From IMG/VR virus record IMGVR_UViG_3300028800_000829, positions 1 through 33,890 of that record: a stretch of DNA of 33,890 bases, one strand, 5' to 3'. The position numbers and the translations under genes were made by a program. Shown in pieces: positions 1,116 through 17,490 of the stretch. The DNA comes from a virus. The notes beneath the pieces were generated by a model. It did no database searches, had not been told where the DNA came from, and worked only from the letters and a program-made list of their open reading frames with translations. Every line of letters starts with the position of its first letter. Position 1 is the stretch's first letter.

Positions 1116-1826
1116 ATGGCCACAATTCAACTTGAAAGAACGATCCAGCGTTCCTCCCAATACGCTCGTCTAGAGCCCTTGGTGTTCGCTGCCAACACGT
1201 ATAATGACCCCGCGTTTTCGAACGCCGATTGGGTTATGCAGACGATCCTCGCGCCCCCGTTTGCGTGGAGGTGGAATCGCACGTCCAAAGGTACACCGTC
1301 TGCTCCAGCGTTTACTACCGTCATCGGACAATCGGATTACTCCGTAAGCTTGCCCACCTTTGGGTGGCTAGAGAAAGCCACTTTGTACGACCCAGATTCT
1401 GGATACGCGGCTTTCGAGTTGCAGGTTGAACTCTTAAAAGCTGCCGAGACCTTGGCCAATCAGCCGCAAAGAATAGCCACTCAACTCGATGATGGTCAGG
1501 GAAACATAACTTTTCGGTTATTCGGTACCCCGGACAAAGTCTACAACATCTGTCTTGAATTTCAAAACGCCGCTCAACTTTTCACTGATACCACCCAAAC
1601 TTGGAGACCGATTCCAGATTATCTCAGTTTTGTCTACAACGAAGGGTTTGATTTTCGGACGTTCTCATATTTGGGTGACCCGAGGGCGCAGACCTCTGGA
1701 CAGCTTTTCTTTCAATCTTTGGCTCAGATGTCCGAGGGTTTAAGCGAGAGCCAGAAAAATTTGTGGTTGGGGGATAAGCTCAACACGTTGAGACAGTCCG
1801 CAGCGGTCCAAGGAGGGCGAGGCTAA
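1116..1826 (+). CDS. Tail adaptor-like protein (paralogue of the 12757 gene)
   Basis: This 236-residue protein starts at the ATG directly after the previous stop. It shares an ordered set of motifs with the 362-residue protein at 12757: a VM-x-x-IL helix, W-x-WNR (here WRWNR), a QSDY/QQDY turn and a GWLE motif, then an IP-x-Y-x-S helix near the C-terminus. The 12757 protein precedes the nozzle-like gene, as T7 gp11 precedes gp12, so both are best read as adaptor or tail-tube-A-like subunits. This copy lacks a roughly 100-residue middle insertion present in the other. It overlaps the next gene by one base (TAATG). The family assignment is from gene order and shape, not a database match. Confidence 0.65.
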   Translation: MATIQLERTIQRSSQYARLEPLVFAANTYNDPAFSNADWVMQTILAPPFAWRWNRTSKGTPSAPAFTTVIGQSDYSVSLPTFGWLEKATLYDPDSGYAAFELQVELLKAAETLANQPQRIATQLDDGQGNITFRLFGTPDKVYNICLEFQNAAQLFTDTTQTWRPIPDYLSFVYNEGFDFRTFSYLGDPRAQTSGQLFFQSLAQMSEGLSESQKNLWLGDKLNTLRQSAAVQGGRG

Positions 1827-2341
1827 TGGGAATCACTACTACTGGACTCCATCGCTTCTCCAACGTGACCGCTAGGGCACAATACTCTACGACCCAAACG
1901 GTTGTTCCGGGTGCTACGATCTACGTCACACAAACCGTGGACGGAACCGAAGCTACGATATACTCCGACCCCGGGTTGAGTATCCAAATTGTCGGAGCTT
2001 TAATCACGGCGGACCAATCGGGTTTCTACGAATATTACATTCCCCTCAGTTACGACGTAACCGAAATCATCTCGTCCCCGTCCGGTCTTTTAACTGTAAT
2101 CACTAACATCGTTCTGAATACTCAAGTTGGATCAAATTTTGTAGTAAACGAGATCGTTGCGGGAGCGGGAACTGCTTTCACCTTAGCCAACACTCCGACA
2201 TCTGGGTCGGTTGCTTTGTATAACGGGGCGGCTCGTCTTCGTCCCGGCTCACTTCCTGCCGACTATACAATTTCTGGAGCAAATATTACCATGAACTACT
2301 CAGTTTCAACGGGAGGACTCCTTGCGGACTATAGGTACTAA
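1826..2341 (+). CDS. Short tail-fibre head protein
   Basis: This 171-residue protein has two parts. Residues 1-90 contain TTGLHRF, ATIYSDP, ALITAD and YYIPLSY, and match the N-terminal domain of the 1319-residue protein at 4593 position by position. Residues 105-171 resemble a common phage fibre/baseplate beta module with the FTLANTP...GSVALYNGAARL...DYTISGANITM pattern. There is no signal peptide, unlike the related downstream protein. It probably anchors or adapts fibres on the tail. Start coupling (TAATG) links it to the adaptor-like gene upstream. Confidence 0.7.
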   Translation: MGITTTGLHRFSNVTARAQYSTTQTVVPGATIYVTQTVDGTEATIYSDPGLSIQIVGALITADQSGFYEYYIPLSYDVTEIISSPSGLLTVITNIVLNTQVGSNFVVNEIVAGAGTAFTLANTPTSGSVALYNGAARLRPGSLPADYTISGANITMNYSVSTGGLLADYRY

Positions 2342-4586
2342 ACTTGTTTTGGTGTTCTTGCTCTTCCTAGCGGTTATGGCGAAGACGCAGACGGTTTCCC
2401 AAATTATAAACGGGGGCACGGGCGCAACCACGGCGGCGGGAGCGCAAGCGAATTTGCTCAATCCTACGGATCAATGGGTCGCTGTGGGCGCTGACCCGGT
2501 TGCAACAATCAATGCGGCCTGCGCTTATATCGCCGCAAACAATCAATCGGTGCGGCTGAACTTCCCCGGCAGCAGGTTCGTGTTCGGATCGACGGCTATG
2601 ATTGGCAATACCTGCTCTGGATTGACGATCAACGGCACGCAGGGCATCTTAGCTCCAACGTGTGCGAACCCTGATACCTGTATGAATGTGCAGGGTGGCA
2701 CAGTGTTTGACTGCGGCGCTAGTCAGTGCATCCTCATTAACGGCAACGGAACGACAGGCCCGAATAACGTCACAATTCAGAATGTGCTTTTCGACGATTG
2801 GGGAGCGACAGGATTTTTGCAATCGGGCTCGCCGACGACGGTTGGAGCGGGATTCCCGCGCTTTAAGGACATCTACGCCGTGGGGCAGACGACCGTCAAT
2901 GCCTCTACGCTCGGCATGGTGCTTTACAACACGCAGCACGCGACTATTGATGAGTTGAGAATCGCCAACGTGGACACGGGCTTCTCGACCTTGGTTGCAG
3001 GCAGCACCGGATCGATTCCTGGTAACAGCGAGATTCACAGCCTTTATGTTTACCCTTACACGAAATCGGTTGCGAACGGGAACTGCTCTTATCCCGCGAT
3101 TGACAATGAGGCGAACTACAACGTCTTTTACTATGTTCAAGTGAATCAGTATACCGGGGAATCGTGTTCGACCGCGATATACGACAACACTTCGCTGACG
3201 ACATACGATGCTGTCGCATTTGAGGGAAATTTCCTTAATGGGATGGACATTGCTGGAGGCGATGAAATCATCAACATCGTCGATGCGTTCGGAAGACCTT
3301 CGACGATCAACGATGTGACGATGGAAAGCTCCAGCGGGGAAATTCAACTGACCTCTTCGAGTCCGAACGTCACCATCAACAATCAAAGCGCCAACAACAC
3401 GAGAAATTGGTTTAGCGGCAGTTTCAACAGCACCTTCCCGTGGGTTTTCCTGACCGCCTCGGGAGGGTCGGGCATGACGATAGGAGCCTATCCTATTTCG
3501 TTCTCAGGGGGTGGTTGCACAACTCAACCGACCGCAACCCTCTACGTCCACAGTGCGACCACCTACGACTACCCGCAACTGCTGACTCCCGGCGTGAATT
3601 GCACATCGGCTTCATCCGCGTCAGTTGTGACTGGAGGAACACCGCCCACACTCACGGTGCATTGGTCGCAACAGGCTTATGGAATCTTCAACGGACAACT
3701 TAATGTATCGGGTGGTCTAACGCTAAACGGCACTCTGAACGCTCTTGGGCCTGACGGTCTCAACGTCTTTGGGAGCTATATTGCTGGAGGGTCATCAAAC
3801 GGCGCATCGGCGCAGATCAAGATTGAGGGCATCCCAACACCAAGCGCAGCGCCTTACGATCCCGGCGTCTTGATCTGCCCGAACGGGTCTGATTCCTATT
3901 GCGGATCAATTTTACAGGATTATTTCAGCGAGACGGGGGGCACCAACAATATCTCCGGAATGAACTTCCATCTAGGAACTGTGAGCGGCTATAGAGACAA
4001 CGCTACGTTCCTCAACGGAGCAGGGAATCCAGTTGGCGGATTTTATGATACTGGATTCCTAAGCCCATATGTACCTAGTTTCGATTCTACGCATAACTTC
4101 CTGATGGGTTCCGGCGAGGGAATTGGATTCTGGAATAACACCTACACAGCAATCCTCACCCCACCGAGCTACAGTTCGAATTTGACGTGGGCTATGCCCA
4201 ACGCAACCGGAACTGTGATGGTATCCGGAAACGCTACTACCGGTAATCTGGCGGACTGGACAAACTCCGGTGTGGGGTCTGGCTACTACCCGGCATGGAA
4301 TACGGGGACGAGCAAGTGGACGGCAACTCCGTTCCCGGCCCAGCCTTTGACCGGGACTACCGGCACCCTCACGGGAACGTCCCTCACATCTACCTGCGAC
4401 TCCGGAACGGCAACAGTTACGGGGGCGGTGGTGGGTTCTCCTGTCGTTGTCAGTTCGACTACTGGAGCAGATGTTGGGGGCGCTTTCTACCTACGTGCTT
4501 CTGTGACTTCTACCAACACGGTGACTGTTTATGTCTGCGGAACCGGAACACCCCCTAGCCTTGCGTATAACGTAACCGTACTTTAG
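2322..4586 (+). CDS. Tail-spike-like protein with signal-peptide-like N-terminus and beta-helix
   Basis: This 754-residue protein is read from a TTG at 2322, chosen because GGGAGG lies at 2311-2316 with ideal spacing. The next in-frame ATG, at residue 19, lacks such a site. Residues 1-22 (basic start, then LVLVFLLFLAVMAKTQ) look like a Sec signal. The phage-fibre motif NGGTGATTAAGAQANLL follows at about residue 30. Residues 60-330 have the short-turn, Asn/Gly-rich, Cys-paired pattern of a right-handed beta-helix, as in receptor-degrading tail spikes. The C-terminal 80 residues form a beta module ending in VTVYVCGTG...AYNVTVL, frequent at phage fibre ends. Many cysteines suggest disulphides. 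It overlaps the upstream gene by 20 bases. Confidence 0.75.
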   Translation: MRTIGTKLVLVFLLFLAVMAKTQTVSQIINGGTGATTAAGAQANLLNPTDQWVAVGADPVATINAACAYIAANNQSVRLNFPGSRFVFGSTAMIGNTCSGLTINGTQGILAPTCANPDTCMNVQGGTVFDCGASQCILINGNGTTGPNNVTIQNVLFDDWGATGFLQSGSPTTVGAGFPRFKDIYAVGQTTVNASTLGMVLYNTQHATIDELRIANVDTGFSTLVAGSTGSIPGNSEIHSLYVYPYTKSVANGNCSYPAIDNEANYNVFYYVQVNQYTGESCSTAIYDNTSLTTYDAVAFEGNFLNGMDIAGGDEIINIVDAFGRPSTINDVTMESSSGEIQLTSSSPNVTINNQSANNTRNWFSGSFNSTFPWVFLTASGGSGMTIGAYPISFSGGGCTTQPTATLYVHSATTYDYPQLLTPGVNCTSASSASVVTGGTPPTLTVHWSQQAYGIFNGQLNVSGGLTLNGTLNALGPDGLNVFGSYIAGGSSNGASAQIKIEGIPTPSAAPYDPGVLICPNGSDSYCGSILQDYFSETGGTNNISGMNFHLGTVSGYRDNATFLNGAGNPVGGFYDTGFLSPYVPSFDSTHNFLMGSGEGIGFWNNTYTAILTPPSYSSNLTWAMPNATGTVMVSGNATTGNLADWTNSGVGSGYYPAWNTGTSKWTATPFPAQPLTGTTGTLTGTSLTSTCDSGTATVTGAVVGSPVVVSSTTGADVGGAFYLRASVTSTNTVTVYVCGTGTPPSLAYNVTVL

Positions 4587-4592
4587 GAACAA

Positions 4593-7500
4593 ATGAAGAA
4601 ATTACTCATCATCGCCGCCTTCTGTGTTTGTCCATTATTCGGACTGGCTCAAGCTACCACTGGGTATCATAGGGTCCAAACAGCTTTGGCTCGGGCTCCT
4701 CAAGGAGGGGTGACGGCGAACGTTGTTCCGAACGCAAAGATTACCGTGACTAGCACGGCTACCGGACTGGCGGCGACGATCTACTCCGACCCGCTTTTGA
4801 CGGCGCAGATAACCCCGGCTTTGATTACTGCGGACAACTCCGGGAACTATTCCTACTACATCCATTTGAATTATTGTGTAACAGAGACCATCACCGCGCC
4901 GGGGCAGCATACCCAAACCATCCCTAATATCTGTATCAACGGCGGAGGTGGTTCTCCCGGTGTGTCCAGCCTGAACTCTCTGACCGGCGTCATAAATCTT
5001 ACGTCTACTGGCAACACGGTTACTATCACTCCTAGCGGGTCTAGTATTGATCTTGAAGCCAACGGGGGAGTTCTTCTTCAAACCAACACGTCTAACAACT
5101 CTTCTCAGACGACTCTGAATTTCGAGACCAGTACAACAAACTCCATCGGTCTCGTTGTAACCCCATCAAATCCCAGTGGGGGTATTGAAAAAGAAGAAGT
5201 AACCGGAACCTACTCCGGTTCGATTTCTTCTTCACAAGTTACAACCGCCCTTGGATACACCCCGGTTTCTCCAACAGTAACTTCCTTGGTCGATTTGACC
5301 ACAGCGGCTGGCGGAGCTTTCGGAACCGCTGCCTATGACAATACGGGGACCAGCGGGGCGACAATTCCCTTGCTGAATGGTTCCCCCACGGCAAGCGGGG
5401 TGTGGACTTTCTCGGCATCAAACGCTCTTGTTCTGTCCGCAATGACAGGTACAAGCTGCTTGGAGGAAATTTCCGGTATCGTCACGGCTACTGGCGTGGC
5501 TTGCGGAAGTGGCGGAGGCGGCGGGACAAATCTTGAGATAAATGGCAGTTCCGCGCTAACGACGGCCAATTTTTCCAACAATACCGGTGCAGGCGAGATT
5601 GACTTCACAAATCCGAGCGGAGCGACGGTCAACGCCACGCTGCACAATACGACTATCTCTGGAATCGCTTTAGGGAACAATCTCAATGTTTTGACTTTTG
5701 GGACACACTTAGCTTCTGGAGGATCGTCCTACAACGGCTCGGCGAATGTCACTATCACCAGTGACGCTACGAACGCGAACACGGCTTCAACCATCGTGGC
5801 GAGGGATGCTTCTGGCAATTTCGTGGCTGGAACGATCACAGCAACTCTAAACGGTAACGCGACCTCGGCCACATCGGCTACGAGTGCGACGAATTTTACC
5901 GGGTCACTGTCCGGTGATGTAACCGGAACCCAAAGTGCGACTGCCGTTGTAAAGATTAACGGTGGCTCTGTACCGGGAAGTGCGAATCTGCTTGCCTCGA
6001 ATTCCAGTAGTCAGTTAGTGGCAGCGACGGCAGCAGGCGTTGGCACTGTGATTAACCTTGCGGCAAACTACATCCACTACAGCGGAGGATCGAGTTCTGC
6101 GGTCCTCGGCATCACTCCAGTAAACAATGCCGTGCTGGTTACAAACGGAAGCGGTGTACCTTCCGAGAGTACAACACTTCCAAGCGGCCTGTCGGCTACG
6201 AACCTGTCCCTTACTACGCCGAATCTAGGTACTCCCTCTGCTGGAGTATTGACGCACGCTACCGGACTTCCGGCTGCTTCGGTGCTGGCCGGTGCGTTGG
6301 CGAATGGTATGACGGGAACAACGCAGACCGTGGGTGACAACACAACAGACTTGGCAACGGATGCTTTCGTACTGGCTAATGCAGGATCATGCGCTAATGC
6401 ACTGACCATGAACAATTCTGGTGCCGGGGCGTCTTCTGGGGCTGCGTTCAATTGCGGAACAGCATTGACTCTCAGTTTCAATACCATTGGAGCAGCCCCG
6501 GCTCTCGGGCTTCCTATTTCGGAGACCACTTCGTGGACCGTTTCGAATACAATCCCGACGATTTATATTTTCACTGGATCAGGGGCCTCGAACGCCACCC
6601 TTCCGGCGTCCGCCAGCGGTTTTCCGACCACAGTGATCTGGAATCAAGGAACAGCGGCTATCACAATTGCCAGCGGGGGAAGCGCCCCAGTTTGCGAACC
6701 GTCAAGTTGTATAGTTCAGATAGGGGGAAGTGCGGTTGTTTCTATAAACGCGGCAGGAACAGGGTTCGCCGCTCAACAATCGAACGCTAACGGAAGCGCG
6801 TTTGGTTCACTCGCCAATGCGAGCACGATCAACAATTCAAACTGGTCTGGGACGGTTCTGGCTGCTGGAAACGGAGGCACAGGTGTTGCCAATACGGCGA
6901 TCCTGACTCTGGGATCAAGCAATCAGAATTGGGCCACTCTCGGAACGGGCATCGTCAAGAATACGACGACTACCGGCGCACTTTCCGACGCGGCCTATGC
7001 GGACGTTGTTGGATTATGGGCGAGTGGTTCGTGTTCTGGATATCTCAAGAGCGACGGAACCTGTTCGACACCCGGAGGATCAGGCACAGTCACCGTCGTT
7101 GGGGCGGGATCATTGACTTCAACCGCTCTCGTGACTGGCGGCGGAACTGCCACGCTGCAAACTCCATCGGCTACTTCAACGCTGGACGCGAGCGGCAATC
7201 TTGCAGTCGCAGCCGGTGGGTCAATTGGCAGTGCCGACACTGGAACGCCGAAGTTCACATTTGCAACAAACAAGGCAACGTTCAATCAGCCTCTCTACTT
7301 GGGAACCACGAGCAATCAGCTTGTGCTCGGCACGAGCCCGAATCTGTCCACCTTGACCTTCCCGGCCTCGTCGGGAGCGGTTACGCTGACCTTCCCAAAT
7401 ACGACAGAATACATGATCGGCGCAAACAGCGACACGACGACAAGCCATGTACTTCATGCAACGTCTGTGGCTGGCGTAGGGGCATTTAGTGCGATTGCAT

Positions 7501-8552
7501 ATACTGATCTTCCTACGGGGACAGGAGCAAATCAGGTTGTTCTCGGTGGCGCAATTACTGCTGGGGGCCCCACAGGGGGAGCAACATCTATCCCGGTTAT
7601 CACCTACAACGCGGCAGGTCAGTTGACAGCCGTAACGACAGCAACTCCGACAGTGGCGACGATCCAAGGCGGTGCGACTGGGGATTTGGTCTATCAGAGC
7701 GCGGCGAATACGACCGCTTTCAGCACGGACTTCACATTCGTCACGCACACGCTCACAGGCGGGTCTTCAGCGATCCTCGACCTTAGCGCAGCCTCAGTGA
7801 CGGCTGGATTGAAAATCCCCGGTGCCGCTGGTGGCGCACCGACAGCAGATGATTTCCTCGCCTTCAACACGACCAATCACACGCATGTGTGGGGATCAAA
7901 CGGCACCACCCTCGTTGGAGCGGCAGCGGCAACGGGTACTGGAACATCGACCGCGTGCTCGTCCCACAACTGGGTTAGCACGATCTCAGGGGTCGCAGCG
8001 CCGTCTTGCACGCAGCCTGCAATCGGAGACATTAGCGGCCTTGGGACCGGCGTGGCAACGGGCCTTGCAAACGCGGCCACTGGCTCTGGGGCTCCCGTGC
8101 TGGCAACTTCCCCCTCGCTTGTTACCCCGGCACTCGGCGCGGCCACGGCCACAAGTCTCCTCGCAACCGGCATCGTGGACGGTACGGCTCCGATCACCAT
8201 CACGACCGGAACGACCGCGAACCTCGGAACCACCTACAAAAGCGGCTACACCTTCAATCAGGAAGGCACCGCTGGAACCGGCGTCACGTACACGCTTCCC
8301 GCAACGGCGGTTGGGCTTCAATACTGCGTGCAGAACTCAGGCACGACTGGCGTCATCAATACTGGCGTCCTGACGGTCTATCCTCCAGCCTCTTCGTTCG
8401 TAATCTTGAACGGCACTGTCAACACAGTGGGCGCCGGCGGGACTCACGGCGTAGCTTCGGGCGGGGCTGCAGGAGATGGAGCTTGCTTCGTGGCGATTGA
8501 CGCAACTCACTGGGAAGTGTTTCCGCTCAAAGGCACATGGACAGCAAATTGA
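4593..8552 (+). CDS. Long tail-fibre protein with signal peptide and shared head domain
   Basis: This 1319-residue protein starts at an ATG six bases after the previous stop, with AGGA at 4585-4588. Residues 1-20 (MKKLLIIAAFCVCPLFGLAQ) form a clear signal peptide ending near ALA/GLAQ. Residues 20-110 repeat the head domain of the 1826 gene. The rest is low-complexity Gly/Ser/Thr/Ala beta repeats with fibre motifs such as LGTPSAGVLTHATGLPA, GDISGLGTGVATGLA and a VGDNTTDLATDAFV segment, ending with an aromatic THWEVFPLKGTW tip. These are typical of long phage side or tail fibres. The palindromic repeat at 4630-4644 encodes CPLFGL inside the signal peptide. The signal peptide is unexpected for a virion fibre. 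Confidence 0.8.
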   Translation: MKKLLIIAAFCVCPLFGLAQATTGYHRVQTALARAPQGGVTANVVPNAKITVTSTATGLAATIYSDPLLTAQITPALITADNSGNYSYYIHLNYCVTETITAPGQHTQTIPNICINGGGGSPGVSSLNSLTGVINLTSTGNTVTITPSGSSIDLEANGGVLLQTNTSNNSSQTTLNFETSTTNSIGLVVTPSNPSGGIEKEEVTGTYSGSISSSQVTTALGYTPVSPTVTSLVDLTTAAGGAFGTAAYDNTGTSGATIPLLNGSPTASGVWTFSASNALVLSAMTGTSCLEEISGIVTATGVACGSGGGGGTNLEINGSSALTTANFSNNTGAGEIDFTNPSGATVNATLHNTTISGIALGNNLNVLTFGTHLASGGSSYNGSANVTITSDATNANTASTIVARDASGNFVAGTITATLNGNATSATSATSATNFTGSLSGDVTGTQSATAVVKINGGSVPGSANLLASNSSSQLVAATAAGVGTVINLAANYIHYSGGSSSAVLGITPVNNAVLVTNGSGVPSESTTLPSGLSATNLSLTTPNLGTPSAGVLTHATGLPAASVLAGALANGMTGTTQTVGDNTTDLATDAFVLANAGSCANALTMNNSGAGASSGAAFNCGTALTLSFNTIGAAPALGLPISETTSWTVSNTIPTIYIFTGSGASNATLPASASGFPTTVIWNQGTAAITIASGGSAPVCEPSSCIVQIGGSAVVSINAAGTGFAAQQSNANGSAFGSLANASTINNSNWSGTVLAAGNGGTGVANTAILTLGSSNQNWATLGTGIVKNTTTTGALSDAAYADVVGLWASGSCSGYLKSDGTCSTPGGSGTVTVVGAGSLTSTALVTGGGTATLQTPSATSTLDASGNLAVAAGGSIGSADTGTPKFTFATNKATFNQPLYLGTTSNQLVLGTSPNLSTLTFPASSGAVTLTFPNTTEYMIGANSDTTTSHVLHATSVAGVGAFSAIAYTDLPTGTGANQVVLGGAITAGGPTGGATSIPVITYNAAGQLTAVTTATPTVATIQGGATGDLVYQSAANTTAFSTDFTFVTHTLTGGSSAILDLSAASVTAGLKIPGAAGGAPTADDFLAFNTTNHTHVWGSNGTTLVGAAAATGTGTSTACSSHNWVSTISGVAAPSCTQPAIGDISGLGTGVATGLANAATGSGAPVLATSPSLVTPALGAATATSLLATGIVDGTAPITITTGTTANLGTTYKSGYTFNQEGTAGTGVTYTLPATAVGLQYCVQNSGTTGVINTGVLTVYPPASSFVILNGTVNTVGAGGTHGVASGGAAGDGACFVAIDATHWEVFPLKGTWTAN
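4630..4644 (+). repeat. Dispersed 15-bp palindrome, copy 2 (inside signal-peptide codons)
   Basis: GTCCATTATTCGGAC exactly, read in frame as C-P-L-F-G-L within residues 13-18 of the long fibre protein, so the repeat forms the end of the hydrophobic core of its signal peptide. Confidence 0.9.
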
Positions 8553-9292
8553 AAAGACTCTTTATCATTCCGTTTCTTATCTTGCTCTGCGCTGCGCAGC
8601 GTGGCGAGCAAGGTATCTTGACACAGACCGCAGCTGGCGCAGGCGGCACATGGACGCTGCATCAGTTCAAGAATTGGGACTCCAACTCACAAGGCACGGG
8701 CGGATCAGCCTGCACCGGCCTATCCACCTGCACCGTTACGACCGTCGCTCCGACCGCTGGCGATATCGTGCTGGTCGTCGCTACGATGGCGGCAGCATCC
8801 TCGAAAACTCTCAGCACCCCCACTATGACAGGGCAGACCTTTACTCACTGCACGAACGGGGGCGGGTCTGCCACGACTGAAGGGTGGTTTGATTGCTGGT
8901 ACACCTTGTCGGCAGCGGCGAGTGGCACTTCCGTCGTATGCCCTGCGAGCGCAGCCACGCTCTACATGAACTGCGCGGTCTATGACTATCACTGGTCCGG
9001 TTCCTCGATCACCGCCGACAATCAGGCTGCGGTCACGACCGACACAAGCTGCACAACCTGTGCGGGAGTGGGGCTGACTGTAGCTGGCACAGACGTTGCC
9101 GTACAAATGTCAATCGGCGCAAATAACATCACGGCCATCAGCGATGCGACCTACGCAAATCCTGCCAACTTCACCGATGGCGTTGGATCGTGCGGGAAGC
9201 TGAACGCCAGTGGGACCCTTACCACGCCGAACTGGACGCAAAGCAGCGCCGGAGCTGCAACTAACTTTGGCCTCACTTTCCAAGGACATTGA
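8537..9292 (+). CDS. Exported beta-sandwich-like protein of the fibre cassette
   Basis: This 251-residue protein overlaps the long-fibre gene by 16 bases. The N-terminus (KLKRLFIIPFLILLCAAQ) is a strong signal peptide. The mature part begins with a TQTAAGAGGTWTLHQFKNW segment, then PTAGDIVLVVATM, then strand-rich Ser/Thr/Ala sequence with paired cysteines (CTGLSTC, CTTC). This pattern suits a jelly-roll or Ig-like exported domain seen in bacterial surface proteins. I do not recognise an enzyme. AAAGG lies just upstream of the ATG. Base composition looks more GC-rich than the genes at 13-19 kb, which fits acquisition. Confidence 0.65.
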   Translation: MDSKLKRLFIIPFLILLCAAQRGEQGILTQTAAGAGGTWTLHQFKNWDSNSQGTGGSACTGLSTCTVTTVAPTAGDIVLVVATMAAASSKTLSTPTMTGQTFTHCTNGGGSATTEGWFDCWYTLSAAASGTSVVCPASAATLYMNCAVYDYHWSGSSITADNQAAVTTDTSCTTCAGVGLTVAGTDVAVQMSIGANNITAISDATYANPANFTDGVGSCGKLNASGTLTTPNWTQSSAGAATNFGLTFQGH

Positions 9293-12231
9293 TGAGAAAG
9301 ACTCCGATCTTCGCACTGCTGCTTTCTGCGAGCTTCACGTTCGCGCAGGGCCATACCTTCGGCCCTACTTCATTTCCATTGACCGAGAATCCTATCTCGC
9401 AGGGTGGTCAGTGGCTGAACGGATCGACAAATTGCTCCGGCAACTGGACAAATATGGCAACCGACGGGACTAAAGTCTACGGAACCGCATTGAATCCAGA
9501 CCCTCCCTTCAACGACGATTCCGCGTGGCTCAATGCCACCTGGGGGCCAACTCAGACAGTGCAGGCTACTCTGGTGCTGGGTTCCACCGGAACGCTATCG
9601 CAGGCTGAAGTAGAAATTCATCTAAACACAAGCTGTAGCGGTGGGCAACTCAGCACCTATGAGTTCAATGAGAGCGTGCTGTCCGGGGTTCCCTATATGT
9701 ATATCGTCCGGTGGAACGGTCCACTGAACAGCTATACAATCCTTGCGGGTCCGTACAGTTCGCATGTGGCCGTAAACGGCGACGTGCTGAAGGCAACCAG
9801 AGTTGGCAGTCTGTTGACCTTCTATCTGAACGGCTCTTCAATCTTGTCTGTGAACGATTCGACCTTTACAGCCGGTTCACCGGGCGTAGGCCAGTGGTGC
9901 GTCGGAACGACCGTGAGCGATTGCAAAGGCTTTGGCCTGACAGCCTTTTCGGCGAATGATGGCTCCTCCGGGCCCGGAACGTATACCGCATCCTCCGATG
10001 CTGAGTCGGACGTGAACGCGATCATCAACGGCCCAACCCACACGGCAGTCAACGGCGACATCATCCAGATTCCTTGCAGCGGAACTCAGTCAGTCACTTG
10101 GACCTCGACTCTCAGCACTACCAAGACCATCACCATCACGGCTTTGGGAGGAATGCCGAATACGACGGCGAGTACCTTTGGCTCAGGCACAAACTGCCTC
10201 ACCATCAAGGACAACGTGGCAAGCGGCGCACTCTTCAGCTTCACGCCCACTTATGCGTCGTCGAACAACGTCGTGACGTTGCAGAACATGAACATCGACC
10301 CGCTCACGACCAGCACTGCTCTCACATCGCCGGTACAGGTCGGAGGAACCTGCACATCGAGCGGATGTCCAAATCTGCGTGTAGACAATATCTGTTTCGG
10401 CATCGGGACGCAGTGGAACGAGGGTACAAATGGGGCTTCTTCTGACTGGATGATTCGCACCGATAACGTGTTTGGCGTGCTTGACCACAACACGGTTCCT
10501 TCTGGCAGCGATGTGGAATTGCTCAACGCGAACCACTCAGCTTACCTGGGCGTCGGTGGATACGGCGACAACTCCTGGGCGCAGCCTGACACCTTCGGCG
10601 GCGCGAACGTCCTTTACATGGAGAACAACAGTGTCTATACCTCTCAGGCGGTGAACGATTGCGATACTGGCCCGACCGGGGGAGGGATTGGCGGATGCCG
10701 AATCGCTGGCCGTTTTAATCACGTCACAGGCGCCACCGGAATGTTTTCGGCCTTCTATGTTCATGGCCTGGACACCGATGGCAGACCGCAGGGCGGACGG
10801 CAGATGGAAGCCTACGGAAATACTTTGAACTGCGCGACCAGCGGCGGCTGCGATTTAGGGATGGCTTCTTTCAGGAGCGGAACTGGCTATGTATTTGGCA
10901 ACACTTTGACCAGCTCGGGCGGTGGTTTCTACAACAATGTCGCTGGAATCTATGTCTATCGGACGGTATTCAATGCGAGCACATGGGGAGCGTGCGGAGG
11001 GTCGAGCGCGTGGGATACGAACGATGGCACGGTCTACTACACCGGCACCGTGACGACTGCAGCTACCCCGACCATGACCGACTCCACAAAAACATGGACC
11101 ACGAATCAGTTCGTTCCCACAGGAGCGCCCTACACGGTTTACGACGTTACACAGGGATGGTGGGCCGAAATTCTCAGCAACACATCGAACACCATCACGA
11201 TTCAAGGATCGATTCCAGAGGAGCCCCTCAACTTCGTCAACGGCGATAGCTATGAGATTCTGAGGGCTACCGTTTGCGCTGATCAGGGAGGACGTGGGGC
11301 GGGTAACTACGTTTCCGGCTCGACTCCCTCCCCGGCTTCGGCTTTATCTCAGGCGCTTGACCCAATCTATGAATGGGACGACACCGCATCCCCGATCTAC
11401 CACGGCAATATCTCTTCAGACACGTTGAGAACGATTGCCAACCGCGACTGGTACACGGACGGGTCCAACGGTTCCCCAGTCGCGCAGACCTCGCCAACTT
11501 CCCCCTTCAACGGCACCAGCGGGGTTGGGTTTGGAACGCTTGCCAACAGGCCCACAACCTGCACGACCCACGTCGGATATTTTGCAACCGACCAGGGAAG
11601 TTGGAACACGAGCGGCAATGGTTTCGGACAGGGCCAGCTTTACTCCTGCTCCGCGACAAATACGTGGACAGTGCTTTATACCCCCTACACCTACCCTCAT
11701 CCGCTGGTCTCCGGCGTCACGACCTACACATGGAATCCGACCATCGTCGGAAGTGGAAGCCTGACAGGGACGAACTGTGGACCGGGAAGTTACGCTTCGG
11801 GCACGACCATCGGCGGATGCACGGCCTCTGCCGGGACCGGCTCTACGTTCAGCGCGTGGTCTTCGGTAAGTGGCAGCGCGGCGTGCTCCGGCGCGACAAA
11901 CCCCTGCGCGTCGTTCTCGATCACGGCAAATTCCGCAGCGACGGCGACCTTCACGGTCAACAGCTATGCGCTTTCGACGGCTACGTCCGGCGCAGGATCG
12001 GGCACGATCACAGGCTGTGCCGGGTCCGTGAATTACGGGGCTGGATACTCCTGCACGGTCACGGCAACGGGCGGCTCGACGCTGGCCTCTGTGAGCGGAT
12101 GCGGAGGATCGGGAACTACGACGTACACTGGCACCATGCCCGCATCGAACTGCACCGTGACGGCGACGTTTAATTTAACATCGAGCTTAAAACCCGGAAA
12201 CATTACTCTTGTAATCTCAGGAACACAATAG
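9292..12231 (+). CDS. Large exported multidomain beta protein (LamG-like, beta-helix, InlB-like repeats)
   Basis: The ATG at 9292 overlaps the upstream TGA by one base; a TTG one codon earlier is also possible. The 979-residue protein starts with a signal peptide (RKTPIFALLLSASFTFAQ). Residues 20-225 look like a concanavalin/LamG-type jelly roll. Residues 230-700 show beta-helix turns (RTDNVFGVLDHNTV, MEAYGNTLNC) with many cysteines. Residues 830-965 hold at least two divergent InlB/Flg_new-type repeats (GSGTITGC...CTVTATGGSTLASVSGC...CTVTATF). This last class is typical of bacterial secreted proteins and unusual in a virion. It may be a captured surface protein or a carbohydrate-binding fibre. 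Confidence 0.7.
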   Translation: MRKTPIFALLLSASFTFAQGHTFGPTSFPLTENPISQGGQWLNGSTNCSGNWTNMATDGTKVYGTALNPDPPFNDDSAWLNATWGPTQTVQATLVLGSTGTLSQAEVEIHLNTSCSGGQLSTYEFNESVLSGVPYMYIVRWNGPLNSYTILAGPYSSHVAVNGDVLKATRVGSLLTFYLNGSSILSVNDSTFTAGSPGVGQWCVGTTVSDCKGFGLTAFSANDGSSGPGTYTASSDAESDVNAIINGPTHTAVNGDIIQIPCSGTQSVTWTSTLSTTKTITITALGGMPNTTASTFGSGTNCLTIKDNVASGALFSFTPTYASSNNVVTLQNMNIDPLTTSTALTSPVQVGGTCTSSGCPNLRVDNICFGIGTQWNEGTNGASSDWMIRTDNVFGVLDHNTVPSGSDVELLNANHSAYLGVGGYGDNSWAQPDTFGGANVLYMENNSVYTSQAVNDCDTGPTGGGIGGCRIAGRFNHVTGATGMFSAFYVHGLDTDGRPQGGRQMEAYGNTLNCATSGGCDLGMASFRSGTGYVFGNTLTSSGGGFYNNVAGIYVYRTVFNASTWGACGGSSAWDTNDGTVYYTGTVTTAATPTMTDSTKTWTTNQFVPTGAPYTVYDVTQGWWAEILSNTSNTITIQGSIPEEPLNFVNGDSYEILRATVCADQGGRGAGNYVSGSTPSPASALSQALDPIYEWDDTASPIYHGNISSDTLRTIANRDWYTDGSNGSPVAQTSPTSPFNGTSGVGFGTLANRPTTCTTHVGYFATDQGSWNTSGNGFGQGQLYSCSATNTWTVLYTPYTYPHPLVSGVTTYTWNPTIVGSGSLTGTNCGPGSYASGTTIGGCTASAGTGSTFSAWSSVSGSAACSGATNPCASFSITANSAATATFTVNSYALSTATSGAGSGTITGCAGSVNYGAGYSCTVTATGGSTLASVSGCGGSGTTTYTGTMPASNCTVTATFNLTSSLKPGNITLVISGTQ

Positions 12232-12238
12232 GAGACTT

Positions 12239-12733
12239 ATGAAACGCACATTCACACTTCTTTTTACCCTTGCGGCCCTTGGTATCACCCAAGGTTGCGC
12301 CCAGCACCCGGTATCAACCCCGCAGTATACCTGTCCACCGGCAGGAAGTTACGTTGATCTGAACGGGGCCACGGGATCATCTTCAACTACCTACACCGCG
12401 TCGAACGTAACCGGACAGACTTGCTTCGAGGCTCAAGGCTATCTCAATGGTCAATATGGGACCGCCTCGAACATCGTCGGACCGACAGTCGGTGGGGCTA
12501 CGAACAAAGTCAGTCTCAGCGTGACCTGCACAGCCGGTACGGGACAGACGTGCTCAGGGGTTAATTGGGTGTTTCAGAGCGCCCCTGCGGTCGTTGCTAC
12601 GGCTCCTGGTACTCCGGCAATGGGTGCCCCAACGAGCGCAGAGGTCATCCTAACGCTCCGGAAGCCGGAACCGCTATTCGCAAAGAATATCCCGAGTGGA
12701 AAGCTCACAGCCAGCGCGGTCGATAGCAAGTAG
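12239..12733 (+). CDS. Small exported, possibly lipoprotein-like protein
   Basis: This 164-residue protein follows TAGGAG at 12230-12235. The N-terminus (MKRTFTLLFTLAALGITQGC) is a signal peptide. The C20 context (TQGC) is only a poor lipobox, so lipid attachment is uncertain. The mature part has paired cysteines, an Ig-like FEAQGYLNGQYGTASN...VSLSVTC pattern and a Pro/Ala-rich linker before a charged tail. It is last in a run of five genes with signal peptides. Its TAG stop overlaps the 15-base palindrome. No family recognised. Confidence 0.65.
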   Translation: MKRTFTLLFTLAALGITQGCAQHPVSTPQYTCPPAGSYVDLNGATGSSSTTYTASNVTGQTCFEAQGYLNGQYGTASNIVGPTVGGATNKVSLSVTCTAGTGQTCSGVNWVFQSAPAVVATAPGTPAMGAPTSAEVILTLRKPEPLFAKNIPSGKLTASAVDSK

Positions 12734-12747
12734 TCCATTATTCGGAC
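12733..12747 (+). repeat. Dispersed 15-bp palindrome, copy 3 (intergenic)
   Basis: GTCCATTATTCGGAC exactly. Its first G is the last base of the upstream TAG. GGAG at 12748-12751, the Shine-Dalgarno of the gene starting at 12757, follows immediately. Layout matches copy 1 and the orientation is direct relative to it. Confidence 0.9.
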
Positions 12748-12756
12748 GGAGAATAG

Positions 12757-13845
12757 ATGCCCATACTTTCTGGCGATCAATCGAACAGCACGACGATTCA
12801 AAAACTAGCTTATCAGCTAAAATCAGACCCGTCCTTCTACAACGTCTTAGGCGGTACTGCTGGGTATAGCACAGAACCGTTGCTGACAATCTGCAACGAA
12901 GTCATGTGCCGAATCCTAGCGGAGAACATGCCGTGGATTTGGAATCGGTCCGTCGTGCCCCCATTCTTAACTGTAAGTTTGCAGCAGGATTATTGCACAC
13001 AGTTAACTGACATTGGGTGGTTGGAAAACGGTTGGCGGGTAGACATCAATAACTCGACATCTAACTCCAATGGGGCCCCGAAGCCGGTCTTCAGTCTAGA
13101 AACGGTAAGATACATCCCACAAGCTTCTGCACAAAGTGTTCCCTTCAACATTTGCTTTGTTCCTAACTCGCAGGCATTTTTGGGGTTGTGGCAAGCGAAT
13201 ACCGAGTACGGTTGTGGATACGGGGTTCCTATGACTCCTCGTTCTCCAATCCAACAGTTCTTGGATGCAAACGGAAACATTCTGTACATCGACTCGACCC
13301 AGTTAGGTCTGAATATTGAATCGCCGGGATATACAGGAACAACTATCTTTCCCCCCGGAGTATACCCTTACGGAACTTCGGGAAGCACCCAGCCTCTCGC
13401 TCCGGCAAACGCAACCCCCGGAACACAGATTCAAGACGGGAGTGTCATCTGGACAGTCGCTAATCCGGACGGGTACGCAGTCAGACTCTTTCCGCTGCCC
13501 GCGTTGAACGGTTTGTGCTGGTGGATTCAGTGCCAGTATCAAGTCGCGCCCCCGCAGTTACTGACGCTGCAACAAACGATTGACCCGATACCTTTCTATA
13601 TGTCGTATCTTTTTAGACAAGGGGTAAGGGCGCAACTGAAGATCGCAAACGGTCTTCCGAACGCACAGCAAGAGTACAACGAGTGGGAGGAAACGCTAGT
13701 AAAAGCTTTGCGCGGAGCAGATAGACAGCAAGACGATTTCCGGCTCTACCCAGATACGTCGATCATGGGTACGTTCAACCCTTGGATGGACCCCGCTGGA
13801 ATTGGAGCCGCGTGGCCGTACGGGCCAGGACCTTACGCCTACTAG
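12757..13845 (+). CDS. Tail adaptor-like protein (gp11-type position)
   Basis: This 362-residue protein starts at an ATG five bases after GGAG. It shares with the 236-residue protein at 1116 the VM-x-x-IL helix, WIWNR, QQDY, GWLE and a C-terminal IPFYMSYLFRQG...QQEYNEWEE helical region. It also has an extra mid-region (about residues 130-260) rich in Gly/Pro and aromatics. Helical ends around a beta insertion, and a nozzle-like gene downstream, fit a T7 gp11-like adaptor between portal and nozzle. The C-terminus is Pro/Gly/Tyr-rich (GPGPYAY). The nozzle gene is now separated from it by a homing endonuclease. Confidence 0.7.
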   Translation: MPILSGDQSNSTTIQKLAYQLKSDPSFYNVLGGTAGYSTEPLLTICNEVMCRILAENMPWIWNRSVVPPFLTVSLQQDYCTQLTDIGWLENGWRVDINNSTSNSNGAPKPVFSLETVRYIPQASAQSVPFNICFVPNSQAFLGLWQANTEYGCGYGVPMTPRSPIQQFLDANGNILYIDSTQLGLNIESPGYTGTTIFPPGVYPYGTSGSTQPLAPANATPGTQIQDGSVIWTVANPDGYAVRLFPLPALNGLCWWIQCQYQVAPPQLLTLQQTIDPIPFYMSYLFRQGVRAQLKIANGLPNAQQEYNEWEETLVKALRGADRQQDDFRLYPDTSIMGTFNPWMDPAGIGAAWPYGPGPYAY

Positions 13846-13871: not shown

Positions 13872-14762
13872 ATGTCGAATTCTATTGTTTACGTCTACGG
13901 TCGAATTTACCTACTGACTTGTTTGGTCAACGGGAAACGATACGTTGGGCAAACGGTCAATTCGATGAGTAAGAGATTGTACGGACATTTCAATTCTCCA
14001 AAACATTCTAAGGCAGTTCGAAACAGCACCCCTCTAGCCAATGCAATAAAAAAGTATGGGAAAGAAAATTTTGGGTCTATTCTATTGTGCTCTTGCTCTT
14101 CTCAAGAAGAACTCAATTTGATGGAGGATTTGTATATTGCCGCTCTCAATACTATGGTAGACGGTGGCAACGGGTACAACCTAGAACGCGGAGGAGCTAA
14201 AGGTAAGGCATCAGAAAAGACCAAGGCCCTTCAAAGCCAACAAAGAAAGGGAATCGGAAATTCTAGATACATACACGAAATAAACAACCAAGAAATAGTC
14301 GATCTTTATAAACAAGGATATGGCGCTCCTAAAATTTCCAAGATTCTTGGCGTACGACAAGGTACTGTTGAGAAGAGGCTCAAAGCTTCTCAAGTTGTAA
14401 TGAGATCAGTTGGTCATCAATACTGGTCCGACGAAGAGAGAAAGGTAGTCGGCGCTCGGATGAAAATTCGTCACGCTGGACCAAAGAACCCCGCATATCG
14501 CCACGATATTTCCACTGAACAATTGATTGCCTTGTACAGCGAGGGTTTCAGCCTCGCAGAAATTGGCAGAAAACTATCTACCTCCCACGGAATAGTTGGG
14601 AAACGGCTCAAGAAAGCCGGAATAACTTTGAGGCCATACCAAAAGAAGAATGTCGAATCAACTACAGAAATTCGGAGCACAAGCATCCAAGCCCGCCAGA
14701 TATGGAATTCTATGGCAAAATCGAATGGCTACGGGAATTTGGACGCAAAGATCGCCGCTTAG
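13872..14762 (+). CDS. GIY-YIG homing endonuclease with two HTH repeats
   Basis: The start is placed at ATG 13872 (296 residues) because the GIY motif begins there; upstream in-frame sequence overlaps the adaptor gene. The N-terminal nuclease has RIYLL (R11-Y13), YVGQT (Y24-G26), the catalytic Arg in KRLYGH (R35) and the metal-binding Glu in NLMEDLYI (E85). Residues about 135-185 and 215-260 are helix-turn-helix repeats, the second after a NUMOD-like GPKNPAYRHDIS stretch shared with the minus-strand endonuclease at 30536. It probably cleaves phage DNA lacking the insertion and spreads by gene conversion. It is more AT-rich than its neighbours and carries its own promoter. Its last 38 bases overlap the likely start of the nozzle-like gene. 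Confidence 0.9.
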   Translation: MSNSIVYVYGRIYLLTCLVNGKRYVGQTVNSMSKRLYGHFNSPKHSKAVRNSTPLANAIKKYGKENFGSILLCSCSSQEELNLMEDLYIAALNTMVDGGNGYNLERGGAKGKASEKTKALQSQQRKGIGNSRYIHEINNQEIVDLYKQGYGAPKISKILGVRQGTVEKRLKASQVVMRSVGHQYWSDEERKVVGARMKIRHAGPKNPAYRHDISTEQLIALYSEGFSLAEIGRKLSTSHGIVGKRLKKAGITLRPYQKKNVESTTEIRSTSIQARQIWNSMAKSNGYGNLDAKIAA

Positions 14763-17490
14763 AGACGCGGCAAGCTCAAGAATTGAAGAAGAATTTTACG
14801 GGGCCAGAGGAGACGCTCTTATAGATGGACTCAACACCGAAATCTCCACTAAGCTAACGATCATCCGCCGCCCGGGCCACACCGTCTATAACTCCCAAAC
14901 GTTTCCAACCATCAACCGATTCTATGAAAATCGAGTGTCCGTGTTCAATGCTTCGCAGACCGCGACCACCGAGTCGATCCAAATAATTGCAGATACTTCT
15001 GATGTTATTTATGACGCGACAGGCCCATCTACCAAAACGGTGTTGTTCAATAAATCCGTTTTTTCCGGATCAACATTTTTCCAATCTGTCGGAAACGAAC
15101 TATTCTTCTCGGATGGTCCAGACCAAAAAAAGCTTATTACTCCAAATTTGGTTTGGGCCTCGAATCAGATGTTCAACACCGGTAACCAGATTCTCGATCC
15201 AAACGGAAATCTGCAAATTGTTCAAGGAACTGGAACTGCCTCTATCACGGAAATTGAGGTAGTTAGCACTACATTAGGTGTGGTTGGCGGACCTACGCTA
15301 TACTATTTGAAGATCACGTTTTCGTCGGATGTTTTCTGGACCCAAGGAACGTCTGTTAGTTTTTCTGGGATCGGGACTTATGCCCAGATAAACAACACGT
15401 CTCAAACCGTGGTTGTTGATCCGACTTACCTTACGCCTTCTCCGACCGTTGCTTATTTCACCACGGGAGCTACGACAACATACGGCCCCGCACCAGATAC
15501 CGGAACAGCCACGTCTACTAACTCTACAGGGTCCGGGATCAGCGGATCGTCGAGTCCAGCGTGGAACGTTTCTCTTGGTGGGTTCACAACGGATAACCAA
15601 TTGACATGGCAGAATTTCGGTTCTCCTTTGTATAATTGGGCCACCCCCGCTCCCGTATTAGCTCCCACTATTACTCCGGTTTCGGGAAACCGGCAGTGGA
15701 CCGCGAACACAACCCTAACCCAATGGTACTCAGTTCTTGACTCCAACGGAAACGTCGAAGTTATCATAAACACTCCGCCCGGAACAACAGGAAACTTCGC
15801 CCCAACTTGGAACACCACTGTCCCAACACCGGCGTCAAATACCTACAACTATACAGCAGATGGGTCTGTTTTGTGGCAAAACGCCGGAACCCCAAGAGGG
15901 TGGTCCGCTAATACTTCGTTCCCGGCGGGAAGTTGTATTGTAGACTCGAATCAAAATTTGCAGTGGGCTTTTTGCACTATCTCAGACTCTACTGGAGCAC
16001 TTCCTCCAACTTGGGCGACGACGGTGGGGGTCACGACTACAGACAACACCATCACATGGACTTGCTTAGGGCCCGGAGTGACTCTCATCTCCGGCTCCGT
16101 TTATTACGCTTATAGCTGGGTTTCAACTGACGGAAGCGTAACCACTTCTTCTCCGTTTGTTGTACAAAATAACCAAACCGCCGTTCTCGGCCCGGCCAAC
16201 GGTGCCAGAGCAATCCTATCAGGAAGTTTTCCGGACGACCCACAGATAACCCAAGCATGGTTATGGCGATCCGTTCAGGGAGGGTCTTCATCTTCTCTGT
16301 TCTTTGACTCAGCAATCCCAAACCCGACCCCGGGAACCGCTTCAAATTGGGCGTTCACCGATGTTCTTCCGGATACTTTTCTTGACGAGCTAATTGAAGC
16401 CCCCGTTGACGACGCAAACAACCCGCCTCCCGTTGGGATCACCGCTCTTGCCTACCACCTGAACCGGGTCTGGGGCGCTGTAGGAAATATTGTTTTCAAT
16501 TCTCAAACATCTGGAATCACCGGAAACCCCTACACGGCCTGGGACCCGCAATCTTTCTTTGAATTTCCCGGCACTGTCGTTCGTTTGTGGCCAACATCCA
16601 ATGGGTTAATTGTGTTCACGAATTCGGCCCCCTACGTTATTCAGGGCCTCGGTGATTCGTCCAGCCCGTTTTTCTCGACCCCCTTCCTTCAGAATGTGGG
16701 ACTGGCAAACTATGACGCTTTCGATGTAAATGGTGCTGTAGCATATATGTACACTACAGATAACCAAGTCATGTCGATGGACCCTTCGTCCGGATTTTCA
16801 GAGGTAGGATTCCCAATCGGAGATCAATTCGGTCCGAATAATGGAACGGGGACTTTTCTTCCAAGCACCGCAGTTTTAACTTGGCATTTTGATGGGTCAC
16901 AAGAAAAAGCCTTGTACGTTTCAAACAGAGACGGCGTTTGGTGGAGGATGTTGCCGACCCCCTCTCCCGAAACCGGAAACACATGGTGCCCAAAAGCCAT
17001 TGTCACCGGGAACTTTTCTGTCGTTCAATCGGTTGAAACTTCTCCCGGGATTCGTAGTCTTCTCGTAGCTCCTTACAGCAACGGGCCTATTTTGATGAGA
17101 GATTCTTCTTCTTTCTCTGATAACGGGTCCGCGTACAACGCATACAGCGTAATAGGGAGTTTGGTTCTCGCACAGCCGGGACAACTGGCTTACGCGAAGC
17201 TGATTACCACGGACGCAATGGCGGTAGGAACTCCGATTACTCTAAAGGTACAGTTGGACGAAATCGCTCCGATTTCCGCCGGGTATTTTGAGAACCTGAC
17301 GTTGTTTGTTCCCGATCCAACACAGTTGTCTCCTTCGAACAGTGTGTATGCTCAGAGATTCTACTTGTCGCAGACTCAACAACCAGCGGTCTGTCGGCAT
17401 ATGCAGATCGCGGTTGAATTTGGAACCGATACGGTTAAGAACGAGCTTCTGTCGTTGACCCTATTTGGTTCTTTCGATCAGGAAAACTAA
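14725..17490 (+). CDS. Nozzle-like large tail protein (gp12-type position)
   Basis: The frame is open from 14650, but the ATG at 14725 (921 residues) starts the convincing sequence MATGIWTQRSPLRDA; the extra 25 residues read through endonuclease codons. No good Shine-Dalgarno precedes either start, so coupling to the overlapping endonuclease gene is possible. The N-terminus has LIDGLNTEISTKLTIIRRPG and VYNSQTFPTINRFYE. The middle holds beta-sandwich repeats with PTWNTTVPTP/PTWATTVGVTT segments. Residues about 590-800 (RVWGAVGNIVFNSQ, GLIVFTNSAPYVIQG) look like propeller blades. Position after the adaptor and before internal virion genes matches T7 gp12-like nozzle proteins. A near-perfect palindrome copy lies at 16832. 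Confidence 0.75.
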   Translation: MATGIWTQRSPLRDAASSRIEEEFYGARGDALIDGLNTEISTKLTIIRRPGHTVYNSQTFPTINRFYENRVSVFNASQTATTESIQIIADTSDVIYDATGPSTKTVLFNKSVFSGSTFFQSVGNELFFSDGPDQKKLITPNLVWASNQMFNTGNQILDPNGNLQIVQGTGTASITEIEVVSTTLGVVGGPTLYYLKITFSSDVFWTQGTSVSFSGIGTYAQINNTSQTVVVDPTYLTPSPTVAYFTTGATTTYGPAPDTGTATSTNSTGSGISGSSSPAWNVSLGGFTTDNQLTWQNFGSPLYNWATPAPVLAPTITPVSGNRQWTANTTLTQWYSVLDSNGNVEVIINTPPGTTGNFAPTWNTTVPTPASNTYNYTADGSVLWQNAGTPRGWSANTSFPAGSCIVDSNQNLQWAFCTISDSTGALPPTWATTVGVTTTDNTITWTCLGPGVTLISGSVYYAYSWVSTDGSVTTSSPFVVQNNQTAVLGPANGARAILSGSFPDDPQITQAWLWRSVQGGSSSSLFFDSAIPNPTPGTASNWAFTDVLPDTFLDELIEAPVDDANNPPPVGITALAYHLNRVWGAVGNIVFNSQTSGITGNPYTAWDPQSFFEFPGTVVRLWPTSNGLIVFTNSAPYVIQGLGDSSSPFFSTPFLQNVGLANYDAFDVNGAVAYMYTTDNQVMSMDPSSGFSEVGFPIGDQFGPNNGTGTFLPSTAVLTWHFDGSQEKALYVSNRDGVWWRMLPTPSPETGNTWCPKAIVTGNFSVVQSVETSPGIRSLLVAPYSNGPILMRDSSSFSDNGSAYNAYSVIGSLVLAQPGQLAYAKLITTDAMAVGTPITLKVQLDEIAPISAGYFENLTLFVPDPTQLSPSNSVYAQRFYLSQTQQPAVCRHMQIAVEFGTDTVKNELLSLTLFGSFDQEN
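16832..16846 (-). repeat. Dispersed 15-bp palindrome, copy 4 (imperfect, in nozzle-like gene)
   Basis: GTCCGAATAATGGAA on the plus strand: 14 of 15 bases match the reverse-complement form, with the last C replaced by A (a C follows one base later). It is read in frame as G-P-N-N-G-T. It is the only copy whose outer arm base is broken. Confidence 0.7.

Follow-up and report, generated by a model that had tools for sequence, protein, structure and literature searches.

Signal-bearing genes of the fibre module

The IMG/VR virus contig IMGVR_UViG_3300028800_000829 (33,890 bases, analysed over its whole length and referred to below as the window) carries five successive open reading frames (ORFs) on the plus strand, beginning at 2322, 4593, 8537, 9292 and 12239, all of which are present and begin with an N-terminus of the n-h-c signal-peptide type. 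They lie between two tail genes on the same strand, one at 1116–1826, which is kept in relatives and whose product is homologous to the tail protein gp13 of phage Tunturi_3 (35%, E-value 5 × 10−22), and one at 12757–13845, which shows 63–79% identity in relatives. A rule-based caller (basic n-region, hydrophobic h-region, small residues at −3 and −1) flagged these five genes and no further gene of the window, in agreement with the initial annotation, which had described five successive proteins with Sec-type signal peptides. In a control set of 41 Escherichia coli genes the caller was right for yacH, yacC, yadE and cueO (a substrate of the twin-arginine or Tat pathway), missed secM and additionally flagged coaE, a false call with a low score, and the membrane protein gcd.

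The first fibre gene (2322–4586, 754 amino acids) starts with TTG and shares 20 nucleotides with the preceding ORF 1826–2341. Its N-terminus reads MRTIGTKLVLVFLLFLAVMA followed by KTQ, giving a signal peptide at 2322–2381 with a predicted cut between VMA and KT. The ribosome-binding site (GGGAGGA) lies at this TTG and none precedes the internal ATG (2376), a start that would omit the signal; the counterpart in the relative L029 has an ATG start and a signal peptide. ORF 4593 (4593–8552) is an open frame for a fibre or spike protein of 1319 residues with the N-terminus MKKLLIIAAFCVCPLFGLA followed by QATTG, its signal peptide (4593–4649) being cut between GLA and a Gln that is invariant in an alignment of 18 relatives. 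ORF 8537 (8537–9292, 251 residues) begins with MDSKLKRLFIIPFLILLCAA followed by QRG; the sequence suggests a cut between CAA and Q (signal peptide 8537–8596), and the caller places it one residue earlier. For ORF 9292 (9292–12231, 979 residues; MRKTPIFALLLSASFTFA followed by QGH) the ATG was taken as the start (TTG 9289 in the ORF list), the caller cuts the signal peptide (9292–9345) between TFA and Q, and the C-terminus contains an InlB B-repeat-like domain (PF18998). The small last gene of the module (12239–12733, 164 residues; MKRTFTLLFTLAALGITQGCAQ) encodes a signal peptide and possibly a lipoprotein processed between GITQG and C. This lipobox is borderline, with a non-canonical residue at −3 and a Gly-Cys at a similar position in three of six aligned relatives; small signal-bearing genes occupy the equivalent place in relatives and are weakly alignable.

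Ribosome-binding sites are clear at four of the five signal-including starts (GGGAGGA at 2322, AGGA at 4593, AAGGA at 9292 and AGGAG at 12239), that at 8537 (AAGG) being weaker. No twin-arginine motif occurs among the five signals. The mature proteins contain 14, 14, 9, 25 and 4 cysteines in gene order, compared with 0–1 in most other genes of the window; the earlier remark that they hold many paired cysteines is thus borne out for abundance and only partly for pairing, as the count is even in three of the five. The fibre motifs GGTGATTAAGAQANL and GTPSAGVLTHATGLP previously quoted for the first two proteins are also found in the sequence. Pfam gave no β-helix match in ORFs 2322 and 4593, Pfam and PHROGs gave no useful family for most of the fibres in the window, and a tblastn search of the fibre ORFs against annotated phages, in which low-complexity filtering may mask some similarities, produced no match.

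The head-binding domain and its cysteine pair

ORF 1826–2341 (plus strand), which is preceded by the ribosome-binding site GGAGG, encodes a 171-residue protein lacking both a signal peptide and the cysteine pair described below. It represents the same domain as the mature N-terminus of the ORF 4593 protein (profile E-value 1 × 10−39), and this pair of genes recurs in relatives; its own predicted structure is poor (pLDDT 47). The corresponding domain of the ORF 4593 protein (residues 20–115, 4650–4937) was modelled by AlphaFold with a mean pLDDT of 68, rising to 77–91 over residues 41–110, and fold comparison placed the tailspikes of Pan3 (9vyg, Z-score 7.7), Pam1 (7eeq, 7.5) and P22 (gp9; 8u10, 5.9, and 1lkt, 5.7) at the top ranks. 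The only sequence matches in the PDB are weak ones to Pan3 tail spike chains (E-value 0.04), and matches in a viral library are to pectate-lyase tailspikes. Position, sequence and fold thus agree, with moderate confidence, in suggesting a podophage tailspike head-binding domain. The relative L023 contains a β-helix (PF13229, E-value 1.7 × 10−14); no profile match was detectable between the head-binding domain and the N-termini of Tunturi_3 gp14 and gp15.

In the AlphaFold model Cys95 (4875–4877) and Cys114 (4932–4934) begin and close an antiparallel hairpin (strands 95–101 and 108–114) and face each other in register as cross-strand partners. Both residues are present in all 23 signal-bearing copies of the domain (one of them chromosomal) and in none of the 12 signal-less copies, Cys95 being invariant among the signal-bearing homologues. 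The mature chain begins Q-x-TTG-Y-HR, compared with M-x-x-x-TTG-x-HR in the signal-less copy. Between the close homologues L016 and L019 the signal sequence is identical despite three synonymous codon differences. Judged from these alignments, the signal and the cysteine pair are retained jointly across divergent sequences.

The basic residues, the hydrophobic core, the [AGS]-Q cut sites and the cysteine pair are present together or absent together, which argues against the hydrophobic N-termini being something other than export signals, either an anchor or trimerization element retained in cytoplasmic fibres or a segment skipped by internal starts. This alternative is improbable, although the fibre motifs and the tail-block position are typical of cytoplasmic fibres and the signal calls rest on a simple rule. 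Internal starts, raised in the initial annotation as a way of skipping the hydrophobic segment, were checked in 22 homologues: in nine of them the stretch from codon 8 to the domain contains no start codon, and in none of the 22 is a signal-bypassing start preceded by a ribosome-binding site, so skipping of the signal by this route was rejected.

Relatives, cultured phages and host chromosomes

Profile searches recovered 25 loci with the N-terminal domain, 19 with the right-flanking tail gene and 30, partly overlapping, in a third search; the N-terminus of ORF 4593 used alone found no close relatives, but the profile query did recover them. Of the 47 genes that occupy the slot framed by the two flanking tail genes, 30 were called signal-bearing, compared with 28 of 313 other genes of at least 120 residues (Fisher P = 3 × 10−16). 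The 17 slot genes without a signal are HNH-like genes, members of the signal-less head-binding family, a single hydrophobic gene of 91 residues and ORFs truncated where the locus ends, and essentially every complete fibre gene between the counterparts of the 1116 and 12757 genes in IMG/VR relatives bears a signal peptide. Contig 3300043788_000060 (110 kb) shows the same layout, with a large head-binding protein, three more signal-bearing proteins, a small one and then the flanking tail gene, and all of its large fibre-like proteins besides the core tail proteins are signal-bearing. The distal parts of the module proteins are largely unrelated among relatives, as expected for receptor-binding proteins. 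An even number of cysteines is found in 36 of 45 signal-bearing proteins of relatives with at least four cysteines (binomial P = 7 × 10−5) and in 63 of 100 signal-less proteins, the direct contrast being only borderline (P = 0.054). Taken at the level of sequence, export of the module proteins by Sec is well supported. Small signal-bearing proteins (about 100–155 residues) also recur in relatives, some kilobases 5′ of the fibre module (L009 3602–3913, L002 487–894 and L007 3995–4459).

A similar arrangement occurs in cultured phages. Tunturi 1 and 2 are 63 kb podoviruses of Tunturiibacter (Acidobacteriota) and are unrelated to Tunturi_3, a cultured podovirus of the same host genus (PMC11924767). 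As in the window, a tail gene is followed by a series of fibre, tailspike and small proteins with signal peptides; the two differ from the window phage in belonging to another lineage, and signal peptides are unmentioned in the main text of the paper describing them (PMC11924767). Tunturi_2, a plaque-forming phage with a complete, circular genome of 63,277 bases, has signal peptides on gp12, gp13, gp14, gp16 and gp17, with 20, 10, 20, 1 and 34 cysteines in the mature chains (even except in gp16), and Tunturi_1 has the same signal-bearing set, its gp14 being annotated as a tail spike. Besides the capsid and core tail proteins, no signal-less candidate for a large fibre or spike was recognized in the complete Tunturi_2 genome. 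A plaque-forming podovirus needs receptor-binding proteins, and by elimination those of Tunturi_2 are therefore most likely to be the signal-bearing set. The tail-region proteins of Tunturi_3 and Tunturi_4, which in Tunturi_3 include the fibres of the corresponding stretch, have no signals, so the trait is not universal among phages of this host genus. Tunturi_2 gp14 and gp17 gave β-helix matches below threshold, gp14 being pectate-lyase-like, also below threshold. A profile comparison with Tunturi_2 gp12 reached 94% probability, largely through the signal peptide, and was not counted as a shared domain; no relatives of Tunturi_2 gp11 or gp12 were found in IMG/VR. Tunturi_2 gp79 (L140 5010–6209) is annotated as a tail protein, and its N-terminal signal is lipoprotein-like (MNTKILLLSLLLTGC).

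Signal-bearing homologues of the head-binding protein also occur in two Acidobacteriota chromosomes (L047 9938–12328 and L133 13890–17255), near resolvase and integrase genes in apparent integrative elements that are possibly phage satellites or defence cargo; no structural genes were seen around them in the stretches read, and one of the two copies has a sub-threshold GDSL lipase match. Such homologues, together with weak matches in other host genomes, could suggest that the phage recently captured secreted proteins of its host, as had been proposed in the initial annotation. The style of the signals is compatible with this, the [AGS]-Q cut being found in 76% of the signal peptides from phages and in 52% of those from the host (one Acidobacteriales genome; a small sample). 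However, a search of 200 genomes of the family and 399 of the class found strong matches only in G007 and G103, where they lie close to genes for recombinases, the domain resembles phage tailspikes and adjoins a signal-less paralogue in the phage, and the module is widespread and diverse among phages. A recent capture is accordingly very improbable, and for ORF 4593, with its tailspike-like domain, signal-less paralogue and place in the tail block, the proposal found no support.

Probable export, proposed virion attachment and other features of the window

In tailed phages, the cytoplasm is regarded as the place where tail fibres and tailspikes fold and are assembled. We know of no Sec signal peptide on the tailspikes of P22 (gp9), Pan3 or Pam1, which resemble the proteins described here in having an N-terminal head-binding fold and a large, variable, β-rich distal part and in being encoded with tail genes; the window phage adds a signal peptide, a conserved cysteine pair and up to five such proteins in a row. 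The conflict between exported fibres and cytoplasmic tail assembly that was pointed out in the initial annotation therefore appears to be real: the trait is conserved, tied to the cysteine pair and common to cultured phages. The filamentous-phage virion proteins pIII and pVIII likewise have cleaved Sec signals, but their particles assemble in the membrane during extrusion, unlike the cytoplasmic assembly of tailed phages. Among tailed phages, the Lys44 endolysin of phage fOg44 is exported by Sec before lysis and is similar in that respect, differing in being a lysis enzyme rather than a fibre or spike (PMC6116005). No earlier account of tailed-phage spikes or fibres carrying signal peptides was found in the open-access full-text literature searched. 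Sec-exported endolysins of tailed phages and coat proteins of filamentous phages are thus known, and the new element would be a Sec export step on tailspikes.

The reading favoured here, to which we assign roughly even chances, is that the window phage is a podovirus of Acidobacteriota whose tailspikes or fibres leave the cytoplasm through Sec, acquire their disulphide bonds in the periplasm and become attached to particles once lysis breaches the inner membrane. Of the options listed in the initial annotation, this corresponds to addition to particles outside the cytoplasm. The gene order suggests that the spike genes would be translated late, together with the tail block. Each chain would then be directed by its signal peptide through Sec and cut by signal peptidase I, in the ORF 4593 protein before Gln20, a step that is well supported by sequence. 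On folding in the periplasm, disulphides would very probably form, both between the paired cysteines of the head-binding domain and among the further cysteines. The cut leaves a head-binding domain that begins approximately where the signal-less paralogue begins, as the sequence match shows, so that docking to the tail should still be feasible. Spikeless cytoplasmic particles and exported spikes would meet, at the latest, once lysis holes the inner membrane, and attachment would be completed at the lysis site or in the immediate surroundings of the cell. In addition, or as an alternative role, the exported spikes may digest surface polysaccharide of their own host ahead of lysis. In P22 the tailspikes are the last components to join the particle, and their attachment also works in vitro, which makes a late joining of the spikes chemically plausible. 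The broader proposition, that Acidobacteriota podoviruses of several lineages share a scheme in which the cytoplasm is the site of head and tail construction and the tailspikes are exported, undergo oxidation in the periplasm and are attached once lysis mixes the compartments, falls a little short of an even chance.

The main rival explanation is that the proteins are exported yet act off the particle, in the periplasm, at the outer membrane or in the medium, where they would cut or mask surface polysaccharide and either exclude other phages or keep progeny from sticking to debris, other receptor-binding proteins being present on the virion. It covers the envelope display and altered adsorption suggested in the initial annotation, and we regard it as possible although somewhat doubtful. 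Signal peptides and the disulphide pattern fit it, as do the enzyme-like domains of relatives (the L023 β-helix and the sub-threshold pectate-lyase-like and GDSL lipase matches noted above). A precedent is WceF of Pantoea stewartii, an exported tailspike-like enzyme that has a head domain resembling that of P22 and functions independently of any phage (PMC7949094); it differs from the window proteins, which have Sec-type signals and are encoded in a phage tail block, in having a Tat signal and a chromosomal gene in an exopolysaccharide cluster, and disulphides are unmentioned in the paper (PMC7949094). Several observations weigh against virion attachment or the reasoning behind it. The product of ORF 12239 is possibly a lipoprotein and would in that case be an envelope component, and the chromosomal copies, lying in integrative elements without structural genes in view, suggest that such proteins can act off the virion. 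All signal-less copies fall into a single clade (support 0.886), so few evolutionary events underlie the association of cysteines and signal, and Z-scores of at most 7.7 are moderate values, at which a common arrangement is possible. Against an off-particle role, the mature N-terminus keeps a tailspike-like head-binding domain, the genes are located in the tail block and no large fibre candidate lacking a signal was recognized in the complete Tunturi_2 genome. We infer from the head-binding domain and the gene context that attachment to the virion follows export.

If the proteins are exported as proposed, either the virion is completed outside the cytoplasm with disulphide-stabilized spikes or the spikes are put to use on the host or in its surroundings ahead of lysis. 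In both cases the annotation, expression and testing of receptor-binding proteins from soil phages would have to change, and the availability of a cultured host and two cultured phages opens the question to direct test.

Downstream of the fibre module, a large tail gene (14650–17490, plus strand) encodes a protein with 43% identity to Tunturi_3 gp19. As relatives of 105–110 kb exist in IMG/VR, the window is probably a fragment of a larger phage genome. Two genes are GIY-YIG endonuclease-like (13872–14762, plus strand; 30536–31414, minus strand), the first lying between tail genes and overlapping them. Near the right end, a 2896-residue protein (21889–30579) without cysteines matches DUF7178 and is probably a large internal virion protein.

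A dispersed near-palindrome of 13–15 bp, GTCCATTATTCGGAC, has 11 copies with at most two mismatches, compared with 0.73 expected (0 of 100 shuffles). Sites in the window are located at 690–704, 4630–4644, 12733–12747, 16833, 18895, 22080, 23154, 26298, 28023 and 31567. The element is possibly a regulatory site resembling the stoperators of phage L5, or a cassette boundary; it is common in relatives, often about 20–25 nucleotides 5′ of a start codon or within the signal-peptide codons of the head-binding gene.

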